A stretch of 64,000 nucleotides of DNA, taken from contig CACZKM010000001.1 in assembly GCA_902781745.1 (NCBI GenBank), forward strand, positions 110,771-174,770. Reading direction: 5' to 3'. Both the position numbers and the translations under genes were made by a program. Positions 2,687-7,864 of the stretch are shown here, in pieces. This DNA comes from Oscillospiraceae bacterium (GTDB lineage Bacteria > Bacillota > Clostridia > Oscillospirales > Oscillospiraceae). The first letter of the stretch is position 1, and every line of letters starts with the position of its first letter. The notes beneath the pieces are model-generated. The model was not told the DNA's origin. It worked only from the letters and a program-made list of their open reading frames with translations, and did not search any database.

Positions 2687-5600
2687 TCAGTATTCCACGA
2701 CGCCCTCGTAGACCAGCACGGCGTCGCCGGTGAGGATGACCTCGTGATCGGTATAGTTGACCACCAGATCGCCGCCTATCAGCTTGACGGTGATATCCCG
2801 GCCCTTCTCAATGAGGCCGTTCTCCGTGGCGGCGATGACGGCGGCGCAGGCGCCGGTGCCGCAGGCTACGGTCTCGCCGTTGCCCCGCTCATAGACCCGC
2901 ATCCGCAGGGTGTCGTCGTTGACGATCCGGACGAACTCGGTGTTGATGCGCTCGGGGAAATAGGGCGCGTACTCGAACTTGGGCCCGATGCGCTCCAGGT
3001 CCAGAGAGGCCAGGTCGTCGCAGAAGACCACGCAGTGGGGGTTGCCCACGCTGGCGCAGGTGATGTTCCAGGTCTTGTCCGCGATCTCCACCGGCCGGTT
3101 GATGATGGTGTTTCCGGGCAGTGTGGTGGGGAGGGCGGATGCCAGCAGGTCGGCCTTGCCCATGCCCACGGAGATGGTATTGGCCTTGCCGTTGCGGATG
3201 TAGAGCAGCAGGCTCTTCACGCCGCTGGCGGTTTCGATGGTCATGTACTCCTTCTTGACGATGCCCTTGTCATAGAGGTACTTGCCCACGCAGCGGATGG
3301 AGTTGCCCGCCATCTTGCCCTCGGTGCCGTCCCGGTTGAAGATCCGCATCTTTGCGTCGGCAATGTCGGAGTTCTCAATGAGGACGATGCCGTAGCCGCC
3401 GATGCTGTAGTGCCGGTCGCAGAGGGAGATGCACAGGGAGCCGGGGCTGGAGATGATGCCCTCCCGGTTGTCGAAGAAGATGTAGTCGTTGCCGCTGCCC
3501 TGCATCTTGGCGAAGGGCAGGAGCTGATGCTCCTTCCGCATGTTGTTCAGGTTGACAAGCTCCGTGTTGCTCAGGTGGAACCGGCTGGTCATCATATCAG
3601 CCATGGCGTTGGCGGTGTCCATGGCGGTGACGGTGGCGATGCTGTGTCGGATGGCCTCCCGGTGAAGCTCGATGTACTCCTGAATGGTGTCGTCATACAG
3701 CGCGCCGGTATAGACGATCAGGCCGATCTTGCCCGCCTCCATGAGCTGATAGGCTTCGGAACCCGGCTGGACGCTGGGAAGCTCATGGACCTGGATGCCC
3801 AGGGTGCGGATGGCCTCGGCGGTGTCCGGGGTGGCATACATGGGCATCTGGAGGTCGTCGAATTTCTTGGCAAGGCCCACCACCTCGGGCAGCTCGTGGT
3901 TTTCGATGGACAGCAGCACGCCCTTGCCGGCGTAGTGCCGGTAGCCGGCGGCGGCCAGGCCCTTGAACATGGCCTCGCTGAAGGTCCGGCCCAGGCCCAG
4001 GACCTCGCCGGTGGACTTCATCTCGGGACCCAGTATGGCGTTGGCGTCGGTGATCTTCTCGAAGGAGAACACCGGGACCTTTACCGCGTAGTAGGGCGGG
4101 ATCTTCCACAGGCCGGAGGGATAGCCCAGGTTCTTGAGGGTGTCGCCCATCATGATCCGGGTGGCCAGGTCCACCATGGGGATCCCGGTGACCTTACTCA
4201 GATAGGGGACCGTCCGGGAGGCTCTGGGGTTGACCTCGATGACGAAGAGCTCGCCCCGATAGATGAGGTACTGGATGTTTACCAGACCCTTGGTGCCCAG
4301 GGCCAGAGCCAGCTTTTCGGAGCAGTCCACTACTACCTGCATCATCTTGTCAGTGAGGCTGTAGGGAGGATAGACGGCAATGGAGTCGCCGCTGTGGACG
4401 CCGGCCCGCTCGATGTGCTCCATGATACCGGGCATCAGCACATCCACGCCGTCGGAGATCACGTCCACCTCCAGCTCGGTGCCGGGCATATACTTGTCTA
4501 CCAGCACGTCGTTGCGGAAGCCGCCGGAGAGGATGACGTTCATATACTTTTCCACATCGGACCGGTCATGGGCGATGACCATGTTCTGGCCGCCGATGAC
4601 ATAGGAGGGCCGGAGAAGCACAGGGAAGCCAAGGGACTCAGAGGCGTCCAGGGCCTCCTCCAGGGTAGTGACGCTCATGCCCTTGGGCCGGCGGATGTTC
4701 AGGGTCTCCAGCAGGGCGTCGAACCGGCCCCGGTCCTCGGCGGTGTCGATGCCGTCGGCAGAGGTGCCCAGGATCTGGATGCCCTGCTTGTCCAGAAACT
4801 CGGTGAGGGCGATGGCGGTCTGTCCGCCGAAGGCCACCACTACACCCACGGGCTTCTCTACCGCAATGACCCCCATGACGTCCTCGGGGGACAGGGGCTC
4901 GAAGTACAGCCGGTCGGCGGTGTCGTAGTCGGTAGAGACGGTCTCGGGGTTGTTGTTGATGATGACCACGTCGTAGCCCAGGTCCTTCAGGGTCTGGACG
5001 CAGTGGACGGAGCTGTAGTCAAACTCGATGCCCTGGCCGATCCGGATGGGACCGGAGCCCAGGACGATGACGGTCTCCTTCCCCGACCGGGGGAAGGTCC
5101 GGGAGTCGCAGTGATCGTCGTAGGTAGCATAGAAATAGGGGGTCTGGGCCTGGAACTCTGCGGCGCAGGTGTCTACCATCTTATAGCTGGGCAGGCGATG
5201 GGGGAGGGAGGCCTCGTCCACGCCGGCGAGCCGGGCCAGGGTCTTGTCGGGATAGCCGTACTTCTTGCCCTGGAGGTATTTCTCATCATCAATGCCTGCA
5301 GCCAGGGACATCTCAAAGTCCGCCAGGTTTTTCAGCTTGGCCAGGAACCATTCGTCGATCATGGTGAGCTCGTGGATACGCTCAATGGTGACGCCCTTTT
5401 TCAGCCCCTCGAAGATGGCGAAGAGCCGCAGGTCATCCATGGCAGCGATCCGCTCCTCCAGATCCCGGCCGGAGGTATCCGTGTAGTTCAGGGTGTCCAG
5501 CTTGATCTCCGCCCCTCGGACCGCCTTCATCAGGGCGGCCTCAAAGGTGTGCTCGATGGACATGACCTCGCCGGTGGCCTTCATTTGGGAGCCCAGCTTC

Positions 5601-6709
5601 CGGCTGGCCCCGTGGAACTTGTCGAAGGGCCACTTGGGGAACTTGCAGACCACGTAGTCGATGGAGGGCTCGAAGCAGGCGAAGGTTTCTCCGGTGACGT
5701 CGTTCTTGATCTCGTCCAGGCTGTAGCCCAGGGCGATCTTAGCCGTGACCTTGGCGATGGGATAACCGGAAGCCTTGGAGGCCAGGGCGGAGGACCGGGA
5801 GACTCTGGGGTTGACCTCGATGACGGCGTACTCAAAGCTCTCGGGGTCCAGGGCAAACTGGCAGTTGCAGCCGCCCTCGATGCCCAGGGCGTCGATGATC
5901 TTCAGCGCGGCGGACCGGAGCATCTGATACTCCTTGTCCATAAGGGACAGGGCGGGCGCGACAACGATGGAGTCGCCGGTATGGACGCCCACAGGGTCCA
6001 CGTTCTCCATGGAGCAGATGGTGATGGCGGTGCCCTTGTGGTCCCGCATGACCTCAAACTCGATCTCCTTCCACCCGAAGATGTACTTTTCGATCAGGAC
6101 CTGGGTGATGGGGGAGTAGTCCAGACCGACCTCGCCTTTCTCCCGCAGCTCTTCCTCGTTGTAGGCCACGCCGCCGCCGCCGCCGCCCAGGGTGAAGGCG
6201 GGACGAATGATCACGGGGTAGCCGATGCGGTTGGCGATCTCCACGCAGGTCTCAATGTCGTTGGCGGTGTCGGAGGGAATGGTGGGCTGACCGATGGAGG
6301 CCATGGTATCCTTGAAGAGCTGCCGGTCTTCCGCCTTGTCGATGGCGTCGGCGTTGGTGCCGATGAGCCGGACGTTGTGGGAGGCCAGGAAGCCCTCGTG
6401 GGCCAGCTCCATGGCAATGGTCAGACCGGTCTGTCCGCCCAGACCCGCCAGAAGGCTGTCGGGCTTGGTCTCCTCAATGATGCGCTTGATGGTCTGGGTG
6501 GTCAGGGGCTCCAGGTACACCGCGTCGGCCATGGCGCTGTCGGTCATGATCGTTGCAGGGTTGGAGTTGACCAGCACGGTCTCCACGCCCTCAGCCTTCA
6601 GAACCCGGCAGGCCTGGGTGCCGGCATAGTCGAACTCGGCGGCCTGGCCGATGACGATGGGGCCGGAACCGATGACAAGGACTTTTTTAATGGAAGTATC
6701 TCTCGGCAT
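2687..6709 (-). CDS. carB: Carbamoyl phosphate synthase large subunit fused to a diaminopimelate epimerase-like domain
   Basis: 1340 residues in one uninterrupted frame. Residues 1 to about 1050 are a complete CarB: first ATP-grasp half (IGSGPIVIGQAAEFDYAG near 14; GGGGGGVAYN near 180), oligomerisation region, second ATP-grasp half (LGSGPIRIGQGIEFDYSS) and an MGS-like allosteric domain (MYATPDTAEAIR). It uses ammonia from CarA, bicarbonate and two ATP to make carbamoyl phosphate for pyrimidines and arginine. After a linker, residues about 1062-1340 form a DapF-like domain: FAKMQGSGNDYIFFD, GNPHCVVF and ETVACGTGACAA, which holds the second catalytic Cys (about residue 1283). The first catalytic Cys of the PROSITE-type CGN motif is Ala here (KMAGNSIRC, residue 1134), and the GxDG motif reads GGYG. 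The start overlaps the carA stop in TAATG, indicating coupled translation. Free CarB is about 1060-1070 residues, so the fusion is real extra length. Whether the extra domain is active is unknown. Confidence 0.95.
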   Translation of the reverse strand: MPRDTSIKKVLVIGSGPIVIGQAAEFDYAGTQACRVLKAEGVETVLVNSNPATIMTDSAMADAVYLEPLTTQTIKRIIEETKPDSLLAGLGGQTGLTIAMELAHEGFLASHNVRLIGTNADAIDKAEDRQLFKDTMASIGQPTIPSDTANDIETCVEIANRIGYPVIIRPAFTLGGGGGGVAYNEEELREKGEVGLDYSPITQVLIEKYIFGWKEIEFEVMRDHKGTAITICSMENVDPVGVHTGDSIVVAPALSLMDKEYQMLRSAALKIIDALGIEGGCNCQFALDPESFEYAVIEVNPRVSRSSALASKASGYPIAKVTAKIALGYSLDEIKNDVTGETFACFEPSIDYVVCKFPKWPFDKFHGASRKLGSQMKATGEVMSIEHTFEAALMKAVRGAEIKLDTLNYTDTSGRDLEERIAAMDDLRLFAIFEGLKKGVTIERIHELTMIDEWFLAKLKNLADFEMSLAAGIDDEKYLQGKKYGYPDKTLARLAGVDEASLPHRLPSYKMVDTCAAEFQAQTPYFYATYDDHCDSRTFPRSGKETVIVLGSGPIRIGQGIEFDYSSVHCVQTLKDLGYDVVIINNNPETVSTDYDTADRLYFEPLSPEDVMGVIAVEKPVGVVVAFGGQTAIALTEFLDKQGIQILGTSADGIDTAEDRGRFDALLETLNIRRPKGMSVTTLEEALDASESLGFPVLLRPSYVIGGQNMVIAHDRSDVEKYMNVILSGGFRNDVLVDKYMPGTELEVDVISDGVDVLMPGIMEHIERAGVHSGDSIAVYPPYSLTDKMMQVVVDCSEKLALALGTKGLVNIQYLIYRGELFVIEVNPRASRTVPYLSKVTGIPMVDLATRIMMGDTLKNLGYPSGLWKIPPYYAVKVPVFSFEKITDANAILGPEMKSTGEVLGLGRTFSEAMFKGLAAAGYRHYAGKGVLLSIENHELPEVVGLAKKFDDLQMPMYATPDTAEAIRTLGIQVHELPSVQPGSEAYQLMEAGKIGLIVYTGALYDDTIQEYIELHREAIRHSIATVTAMDTANAMADMMTSRFHLSNTELVNLNNMRKEHQLLPFAKMQGSGNDYIFFDNREGIISSPGSLCISLCDRHYSIGGYGIVLIENSDIADAKMRIFNRDGTEGKMAGNSIRCVGKYLYDKGIVKKEYMTIETASGVKSLLLYIRNGKANTISVGMGKADLLASALPTTLPGNTIINRPVEIADKTWNITCASVGNPHCVVFCDDLASLDLERIGPKFEYAPYFPERINTEFVRIVNDDTLRMRVYERGNGETVACGTGACAAVIAATENGLIEKGRDITVKLIGGDLVVNYTDHEVILTGDAVLVYEGVVEY

Positions 6710-7779
6710 TACAATCCCTCCTTCATCATATCGGTAAAGCGGTCAAAAGCAGTCAGGGTATCCAGGGGCCCGCCGTGGGCCTCAGGATGGAACTGCAGGG
6801 AAAAAGCGTGATAAGCGGGGTAATCCACACCCTCGCAGGTGCCGTCGTTGACGTTGACGAACCGCAGAACGCCCTCCTTGGGGAGGGAATCGCCGTCTAC
6901 GGCATATCCGTGGTTCTGGCTGGTGATGGACACCGAGCCGTCGTTCAGGTCCTTTACCGGCTGGTTGGCCCCCCGGTGTCCGAACTTCATCTTCACGGTC
7001 TTGCCGCCGGCGGCCAGAGCCATCATCTGGTGCCCCAGGCAGATGCCGAACATGGGGATCTTCCCGAGGAGCTTCTGGATCTGCTCAATGCAGAAGGGGT
7101 TGTCCGCCGGGTCCCCGGGGCCGTTGGAGAGCATCACGCCGTCGTGCCCGCCTGCCAGGATGTCCTCGGCCGGGGTGTTGTAGGGATAGATCGTCACCTT
7201 GCAGCCCCGGGCAAGCAGGGAATTGGCGATGCTCTGCTTGGCGCCGTAGTCGATGAGGGCCACGGAGTATTCGATCTCGCCCTTTGGCATCTGGACCTGG
7301 ATCTCGGTCTCACTGGTGCTTTCCACGGACTTTATGATCTTAAAGGCCTTCAGCGCATCCATGTCGGGCTTGGCTTCTTCGGTGGTGATCACCGCGTTGA
7401 GGACGCCGCCGTCCCGGAGCATCTGGGTGAGCATCCGGGTGTCCACCCCGGCAATGCCGACGACGTTCTGCTCCTTCAGGAATTGGTCCACGGTCATATC
7501 ACAGCGGAAGTTGGAGGGGGCTTCACAGTATTCCCGGACGACCACGCCGCCCATGCGGACGCTGGGACTTTCCTTGTCCGCCAGGCAGATGCCGGGATTC
7601 CCGAACTGGGGGAAGGTGTAGACCACCAGTTGACCGTAGTAGCTGGGGTCGGTGAGGCTTTCCACGCAGCCGGTCATGCCGGTGGTGAAGACCAGCTCGC
7701 CCATGGCGGTGCCGGAAGCGCCGAAGCTCTTCCCCTCCAGGACCTGGCCGTTTTCCAAGTAGAGATATGCTTTTTTCAT
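6709..7779 (-). CDS. carA: Carbamoyl phosphate synthase small (glutaminase) subunit
   Basis: 356 residues from the ATG at 7779 (GGAGGGACACG before it); an earlier in-frame ATG at 7851 would add a non-conserved leader. N-terminal CPSase small domain (residues 1 to about 150: GKSFGASGTAMGELVF, QFGNPGICLADKESP) is followed by a class I glutamine amidotransferase with the nucleophile elbow FGICLGHQ and the C-terminal QFHPEAHGGP that supplies the catalytic His and Glu. It hydrolyses glutamine and channels ammonia to CarB. It is translationally coupled to carB and has its own strong promoter. Confidence 0.97.
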   Translation of the reverse strand: MKKAYLYLENGQVLEGKSFGASGTAMGELVFTTGMTGCVESLTDPSYYGQLVVYTFPQFGNPGICLADKESPSVRMGGVVVREYCEAPSNFRCDMTVDQFLKEQNVVGIAGVDTRMLTQMLRDGGVLNAVITTEEAKPDMDALKAFKIIKSVESTSETEIQVQMPKGEIEYSVALIDYGAKQSIANSLLARGCKVTIYPYNTPAEDILAGGHDGVMLSNGPGDPADNPFCIEQIQKLLGKIPMFGICLGHQMMALAAGGKTVKMKFGHRGANQPVKDLNDGSVSITSQNHGYAVDGDSLPKEGVLRFVNVNDGTCEGVDYPAYHAFSLQFHPEAHGGPLDTLTAFDRFTDMMKEGL

Positions 7780-7864
7780 CGTGTCCCTCCATCCGTCGAT
7801 CCGAGGATCGGGCGGCGCGGCGGCAAAGCGCTGCGCCGCAGTTTTCTTCAATTTCTAATCTTTA

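Follow-up and report, generated by a model that had tools for sequence, protein, structure and literature searches.

One open reading frame in the window, a 64,000-nucleotide stretch (positions 110,771 to 174,770) of contig CACZKM010000001.1 from an Oscillospiraceae bacterium, joins CarB, the large subunit of carbamoyl-phosphate synthase (CPS), to a domain with the fold of DapF, the diaminopimelate (DAP) epimerase, and is open over its full length (Table 1). In this gene, as in most fusions of its kind, the epimerase domain lacks the first cysteine of its catalytic pair. The recurrent loss of this cysteine, with most of the pocket kept, suggests a sensor or regulatory part rather than decay. 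The explanation that we favor, which we regard as evenly poised, is a pseudo-epimerase DapF module on CarB, next to the allosteric domain of CPS, whose binding of DAP and regulation of the synthase are both inferred. Its parts differ in strength. The fused domain without the first cysteine very likely does not epimerize DAP, given the pattern of genes across genomes and the precedent of the C83A mutant of Corynebacterium glutamicum DapF, whose activity is almost abolished (PMC5296763). A retained function other than epimerization is likely, since the domain is under purifying selection. DAP binding is plausible, because the recognition and carboxylate sites remain in most of these domains, and control of CPS is plausible too, if slightly less so, since the effectors of Escherichia coli CPS bind its C-terminal domain, to which the DapF module is attached here (PMC6245113). 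More tentatively, and a little on the side of doubt, we propose that a CarB-fused epimerase was repeatedly converted into a meso-DAP-sensing allosteric module by the loss of one cysteine.

Catalytic and pocket residues of the fused domain

The DapF part of the protein scores 261.1 bits with the DapF model TIGR00652 (curated cut-off, 114.65), as a DapF does by sequence. An AlphaFold2 model of residues 936-1340, built with 41 aligned rows, has a mean pLDDT of 89.3, and its best match in the Protein Data Bank (PDB) is a DAP epimerase (9mro; TMt 0.92, rmsd 1.5), which places the domain in the DapF fold. The original prediction, a reading of the letters alone, had reported alanine in place of the first catalytic cysteine and an intact second one, and for both the coordinates and letters were found as described (Table 1). 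The alanine lies in the motif MAGN (3302-3313, minus strand). Since Ala1134 stands where a DAP epimerase has its first cysteine, the domain is not filed as one; by this catalytic criterion it is best called a pseudo-epimerase domain of CPS. With a catalytic residue lost, the fold kept and purifying selection in relatives, it is by its sequence a pseudoenzyme, its absence of activity being predicted.

A sequencing error or a chance change was considered for the alanine and rejected, since a residue other than cysteine is common to close and distant relatives (71 of 93 fused domains). A cysteine in the fused domains of close relatives, which had been named in advance as an observation that would overturn the claim, was looked for: the four closest fused relatives among the matches listed (71-75% identity over the domain) likewise read MAGN, and cysteine appears only in more distant fusions. 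It had also been argued that the passage from TGC to GCG takes more than one base change; all 22 cysteine codons of the fused domains are TGC and the alanine codons are at least two bases away; the commonest Gly, Ser and Phe codons at the site (GGC, AGC and TTC) are one base from TGC. The letters GGYG at the GxDG motif are correct as well, with the qualification that the tyrosine is mostly found in close relatives of the window protein (10 of the 67 fusions lacking only the first cysteine), the Asp being kept in 50 of the 67.

All DapF-type frames of the retrieved loci were aligned and, after the removal of duplicates and four partial frames, gave 93 distinct fused and 76 stand-alone domains; loci L232-L311 stand outside this alignment and outside the column and DapF-tree counts. 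Both cysteines were present in 22 fused domains (two-Cys fusions), only the first was missing from 67 (Cys-less fusions), both were missing from four, and none lacked the second only. At the site of the first cysteine, the Cys-less fusions have Ala (45), Gly (12), Ser (5), Phe (3) or Leu (2). Both cysteines are present in 73 of the 76 stand-alone DapFs, and the three odd ones are a broken copy (G139), a copy with the second cysteine changed (G038) and a long-branch paralogue with both changed (G108).

The residues that contact DAP were taken from C. glutamicum DapF (PMC5296763), whose numbering is used here, and all eight (N15, N74, N85, N159, N194, E212, R213 and T223) are present in the window protein (row L005). 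Across the 67 Cys-less fusions, N74, G84, N85, N159, N194, E212, R213, G222 and T223 are each retained in 62-67, and N15 in 54. All 12 checked active-site positions besides the first cysteine are canonical in 39 of these fusions and seven core positions in 62, and the two-Cys fusions retain the first cysteine and all 12 others in 22 of 22. Of the columns that are near-invariant in two-Cys DapFs, those loosened most hold the GxGND-loop Gly (30% kept), the Met before the lost cysteine (67%) and the Asp of GxDG (75%); since these fall on the N-terminal face of the active site, most of the change appears to lie there. In 10 of the 73 two-Cys stand-alone rows a different residue stands in the N159 column, probably through misalignment. 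The wider claim of the original prediction, that the domain probably performs no two-base epimerization and may bind a ligand or react otherwise, is supported by the near inactivity of C83A (PMC5296763), by a separate two-Cys dapF-dapL pair and a meso-DAP dehydrogenase (Ddh) in the same genome, by the presence of a non-cysteine residue in very diverged fusions, by the DAP contacts that are mostly kept and by purifying selection.

An internal start that would give a free DapF was considered and rejected: at the position of the linker Met, 39 of the 67 Cys-less fusions have Met, 23 have Leu and five have another or an unread residue, and with such variation there is no conserved internal start. 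Two stand-alone proteins deserve mention in their own right. Genome G038 presents the mirror image of the common case (L165), with a fusion that has both cysteines and a stand-alone DapF with Ser at the second. The stand-alone homologue of G108 (L167, from 4005, plus strand) has Ser at both cysteine sites, most contacts kept and a long branch, and judging by these residues is possibly another pseudo-epimerase.

Other routes to meso-DAP and the history of the fusion

The draft genome of the window (2.05 Mb, 89% complete) holds a second, stand-alone DapF with both cysteines, directly followed by dapL (LL-DAP aminotransferase), as well as Ddh, LysA and a MurE with the DNPR motif, which we take to mark the DAP type of MurE. 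No CarB besides the fused one was found in this draft at E ≤ 1e-150. Given the stand-alone dapF and Ddh and the single CarB, DAP epimerization seems independent of the fusion and CPS probably dependent on it. A side observation is a second MurE-like stretch (G000:C4:51826-53178, L205; also L204 and L206), which lies within a long open frame (970 codons in the window's genome) and in which a motif scan detected no DNPR-type motif.

Another DapF gene was found in 51 of the 67 genomes with a Cys-less fusion versus 2 of the 22 with a two-Cys fusion (Fisher, 2.6e-8, uncorrected for kinship); the counts omit G186, whose contigs and coordinates duplicate those of G103, and G190, which has a stand-alone gene only. 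In 20 of the 22 two-Cys genomes the fusion is the sole DapF found, and in 10 of them it is the sole candidate epimerase, no Ddh being found. The motif could be read in the other DapF of 45 of the 51 Cys-less genomes, and the first cysteine is present in 44, the remaining one being the broken copy of G139. In 23 further genomes, a fresh set with domains no more than 76% identical to the earlier rows and with only the first cysteine scored, another DapF was found in 5 of 10 Cys-less versus 1 of 13 two-Cys genomes; two of the 13 two-Cys fusions there have short frames (644 and 686 codons; G317 and G237). MurE was found in 18 of 20 genomes searched, and the DNPR motif in 18 of these 18.

Among loci with at least 1 kb of downstream sequence, dapL lies within 2 kb on the same strand in 7 of 16 two-Cys loci versus 4 of 38 Cys-less loci (p = 0.010, uncorrected for kinship). 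An eighth two-Cys locus with dapL, L093, has a shorter flank (8 of 17 in all), and in seven of the eight the gene lies within 200 bases. Two loci with a Cys-less fusion (L145 of G011 and L151 of G113) have the order carA, carB-dapF(Ala), intact dapF, dapL. A similar order, with an intact dapF between the Cys-less fusion and dapL, is suggested for G171.

A CarB tree (FastTree; 67 rows, 60 of them labelled fusions, 43 of these Cys-less) places the fusions in one clade, with one unfused CarB inside it (G132, of the same genus as the window). On this tree the first cysteine was lost nine times if it was never regained, or changed four times by free parsimony, and different lineages have different replacement residues. 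A DapF tree of 168 rows, made by a quick method with the broken copy of G139 left out, gives three changes of the fused label and seven of the cysteine state within fusions. The CarB of G132 has a support of 80 for its immediate grouping and of 95 and 91 for the two surrounding groups; since it lies within the fused clade and stops where the linker to DapF starts in the fusions, it may have lost its DapF domain. No DapF was found in G044 or G132 (99% complete, same genus as the window), and Ddh is present in both. A separate observation concerns G148, whose stand-alone two-Cys DapF (L133) is placed among the fused domains on the tree and in which no CarB was found at E ≤ 1e-150; on these grounds, the DapF part of a former fusion may have persisted there after its CarB part was lost.

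Selection on the domain and competing explanations

The dN/dS values were taken from near pairs, saturated pairs being left out, and the pairs overlap and are not independent. They range from 0.03 to 0.32 for Cys-less fused domains (median 0.165, 27 pairs), from 0.03 to 0.13 for two-Cys fused domains (median 0.07, 12 pairs) and from 0.06 to 0.28 for stand-alone DapFs (median 0.152, 7 pairs), so that the Cys-less fused domains are constrained about like stand-alone DapFs; the domain of the window has a value of 0.107 against L006. Within the same genomes, Cys-less fused and two-Cys stand-alone domains gave 0.055 versus 0.060 (G070/G147) and 0.093 versus 0.107 (G024/G120). For G011/G113 the values were 0.32 and 0.213 (two fusions) versus 0.259, and for G020/G117, where both cysteines of the fused domain are lost, 0.128 versus 0.275. 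Neutral decay of the Cys-less domain was considered and rejected, as dN/dS far below 1 speaks against it. Two-Cys fusions have a median ratio of DapF to CarB distances of 1.92, Cys-less fusions one of 1.64 and fusions that have lost both cysteines one of 2.30. The two-Cys and Cys-less sets differ in depth and their binned values cross, the Cys-less ratio exceeding the two-Cys one for CarB distances of 0.3-0.5 (1.92 and 1.66 versus 1.59 and 1.37), and as a relative-rate test the comparison gave no clear sign.

Several observations weigh against a DAP-binding regulatory module and are taken here together with the explanations that they favor. Arginine genes lie upstream of 14 of 37 Cys-less loci versus 0 of 14 two-Cys loci (p = 0.005, uncorrected for kinship; loci with at least 4.4 kb upstream, genes called by similarity to those of G041), a setting that could point to a ligand from the arginine pathway rather than DAP. 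Eight weaker ornithine carbamoyltransferase matches in these counts all have that family as their best match; five exceed the cut-off, and contig ends truncate three. Retention of the pocket columns does not surpass that of other invariant columns (96% versus 93%, p = 0.20, the N159 column being outside the test), so that retention may partly be structural. Both cysteines are lost in G020, G117, G098 and G100, three of which have also lost several pocket residues, and N159, R213 and T223 are lost in G070 and G147; the domain is still present in each, and the low dN/dS of G020/G117 and G070/G147 argues for a role without DAP there.

A structural or scaffold role, in which CarB would need the domain for stability, oligomerization or partner docking and no ligand would be required, fits these damaged-pocket fusions (G020, G117 and G100, and G070 and G147 with the second cysteine kept) and the comparable retention of pocket and other columns. 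A catalytically dead DapF can act by protein contact alone, as E. coli DapF continues to bind and stimulate RppH when Ala replaces both of its cysteines (PMC4227774). However, 39 canonical Cys-less domains of 67 at all 12 positions and 62 at the seven core positions are more than a plain scaffold seems to need, and one CarB placed within the fused clade, that of G132, does without the domain. We consider such a role unlikely, although a serious alternative.

A different reaction carried out by the remaining cysteine is improbable. Cys1283 might act on DAP or some other amino acid, for instance by elimination, alpha-proton exchange or one-way chemistry, since the second cysteine is retained in 67 of the 71 fused domains without the first, no domain lacks the second only, and a change of Cys to Thr accompanies dehydratase rather than epimerase activity in the human trans-3-hydroxyproline enzyme (PMC8142540). 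However, the replacements (Ala, Gly, Ser, Phe and Leu) are chemically unlike, Ser alone could serve as acid or base, and the site left by the lost cysteine shows no constant polar residue; in the AlphaFold2 model the second cysteine stands directly before a helix and may be structural.

The gene counts raise the question of a still-working DAP epimerase, in which water or another residue would replace the first cysteine. Neither another DapF nor Ddh was found in 6 of the 67 Cys-less genomes (G041, 99% complete; G081, 92%; G121, 71%; G176, G181 and G189, each without a completeness figure), and the MurE of G041 and of G081 has the DNPR-type motif. At L150 (G129), carA, a Cys-less carB-dapF(Ala) and dapL stand in a row, with no other DapF found and Ddh present. 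Once DapF or Ddh is counted, the contrast between the fusion types is weaker (61 of 67 Cys-less versus 12 of 22 two-Cys genomes), as it is in the fresh set (8 of 10 versus 9 of 13, the two Cys-less genomes without a route being 65% complete drafts), and a kinship-aware test of cysteine loss against another route was without power (two independent pairs on supported branches, seven on all). A working epimerase nevertheless seems very unlikely, since C83A is almost inactive in C. glutamicum (PMC5296763), another route exists in 61 of the 67 genomes (in G011 and G113 an intact dapF comes next after the fusion), and genes missing from drafts may explain some of the exceptions.

A neutral fossil, decaying in the frame of an essential gene, is highly improbable: the other routes to meso-DAP, a constraint weaker than in two-Cys fusions (Mann-Whitney p = 7e-5, a point that also weighs against the favored explanation) and an in-frame stop (L070) or frame change (L076) near the domain end of two Cys-less fusions would suit it, but dN/dS is far below 1 and near that of stand-alone DapFs, the distance ratio is not raised overall and the fold model is confident.

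Neighborhood, distribution and significance of the fusion

TIGR01369 (CPSaseII large subunit, NCBIfam) matches residues 3-1039 with 1376 bits (cut-off 1027), and carA is the adjacent partner, as expected of CarB. Judged from these matches, the CarB part is a CPS large subunit, its activity and allosteric response being predicted. Antisense to the fusion gene runs a 1355-codon open frame (2744-6811, plus strand), probably a by-product of G+C-rich codon use.

Table 1. Coordinates of the fusion gene, its domains and residues, and the adjoining gene in the window
Feature	Positions	Strand	Basis
carB-dapF fusion gene (P0001), 1340 aa	2687..6709	-	ORF call, NCBIfam, Pfam
CarB part, carbamoyl-phosphate synthase large subunit, residues 1-1043	3581..6709	-	NCBIfam TIGR01369/NF003671
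MGS-like (allosteric) domain of CarB, residues 943-1028, directly N-terminal of the DapF-like domain	3626..3883	-	Pfam PF02142, 25.7 bits, cut-off 24.1
DapF-fold domain, residues 1066-1338	2696..3514	-	TIGR00652 and AlphaFold2 model
Ala1134 (GCG) where C. glutamicum DapF has C83, its first catalytic Cys	3308..3310	-	Alignments
Cys1283, second catalytic Cys, kept; motif ACGTGAC	2861..2863	-	Alignment
GGYG where GxDG is expected (Asp to Tyr)	3389..3400	-	Alignment
Glu1274-Arg1275 (E212 and R213), two DAP contacts, kept	2885..2890	-	Alignment
Asn1125 (N74), DAP contact, kept	3335..3337	-	Alignment
Asn1136 (N85), DAP contact, kept	3302..3304	-	Alignment
Asn1223 (N159), DAP contact, kept	3041..3043	-	Alignment
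Asn1256 (N194), DAP contact, kept	2942..2944	-	Alignment
carA, CPS small subunit, directly upstream of the fusion; base 6709 common to both frames	6709..7851	-	NCBIfam TIGR01368

In a family sample of 150 genomes, the window's own included, the domain was matched at E ≤ 1e-10 in 128, and at least 49 have a fused copy. Across 391 genomes sampled from the whole class, the matches listed include fused frames of at least about 1,300 codons in many family codes; the 80 named loci that were fetched are the best of 576 confirmed loci. The hosts are bacteria related to Clostridia, many of them from animal guts, and include Ruminococcus sp. FC2018 (L055), a strain-named host whose fusion keeps both cysteines. 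Two records labelled Treponema (L066 and L113; G181 and G189) also contain Cys-less CarB-DapF fusions, by transfer or binning error.

The window protein resembles DapF (TIGR00652, PF01678; PDB 9mro, 2otn, 5m47) in fold, full-length similarity, second cysteine and DAP contacts, and differs from it in the Ala for the first cysteine, the Tyr for the GxDG Asp and the fusion to CarB. It shares its architecture, linker region and CarB-tree clade with the two-Cys fusions (e.g., L055), which in contrast keep the first cysteine, are the sole DapF in 20 of 22 genomes and have dapL nearby in 8 of 17 loci. O-ureidoserine racemase uses two cysteines. This racemase of another substrate (PDB 7vdy) has a DapF-type fold and was matched by both sequence and structure search. 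The E. coli DapF/RppH pair (PMC4227774; PDB 6d13) offers a DapF fold that works as a non-catalytic regulator with both cysteines changed to Ala; there, however, DapF is a separate protein and also an active enzyme, and its partner is an RNA pyrophosphohydrolase. Human CPS1 is a CPS family enzyme that retains an ancestral glutaminase-like domain after the change of its catalytic Cys to Ser (PMC4655335), although that domain is a different one, on the N-terminal side, and N-acetylglutamate switches CPS1 at its C-terminal domain. A pseudoenzyme domain on a metabolic enzyme is a known kind, of which the recurrent loss of the first cysteine in a widespread CarB-DapF fusion would be a new form; a full-text search of the open-licence literature found no account of a CarB-DapF fusion or of a pseudoenzyme DapF.

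For the DAP-binding module that we favor, a likely history runs as follows. Within an operon carA-carB-dapF-dapL, carB would have been joined to the dapF that followed it, giving at first a bifunctional protein like the present two-Cys fusions. Where another dapF or Ddh could take over, the fused copy would have been free to lose catalysis, and the first cysteine changed repeatedly. The preserved pocket might still bind meso- or LL-DAP without turnover. C. glutamicum DapF closes its domain upon DAP (PMC5296763), and such opening and closing would provide a ready-made switch that could be relayed to the adjoining allosteric domain. What is sensed would be meso-DAP, an isomer that should be present even in genomes with Ddh as their sole route to it, and the supply of carbamoyl phosphate would then track the cell-wall precursor pool.

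Because TIGR00652 scores more than twice its cut-off here, automatic annotation would name a DAP epimerase, and metabolic reconstructions could misassign the step to a domain that is very likely unable to perform it. The fusions amount to a repeated natural experiment in the change of an enzyme domain into a non-catalytic one, in which fused forms, both active and probably dead, can be compared with active free ones. If the proposed reading is true, carbamoyl phosphate for pyrimidines, UDP-sugars and arginine would be tied directly to the peptidoglycan precursor DAP, a testable link of cell-wall precursor supply with nucleotide and arginine synthesis in bacteria that are common in gut samples.

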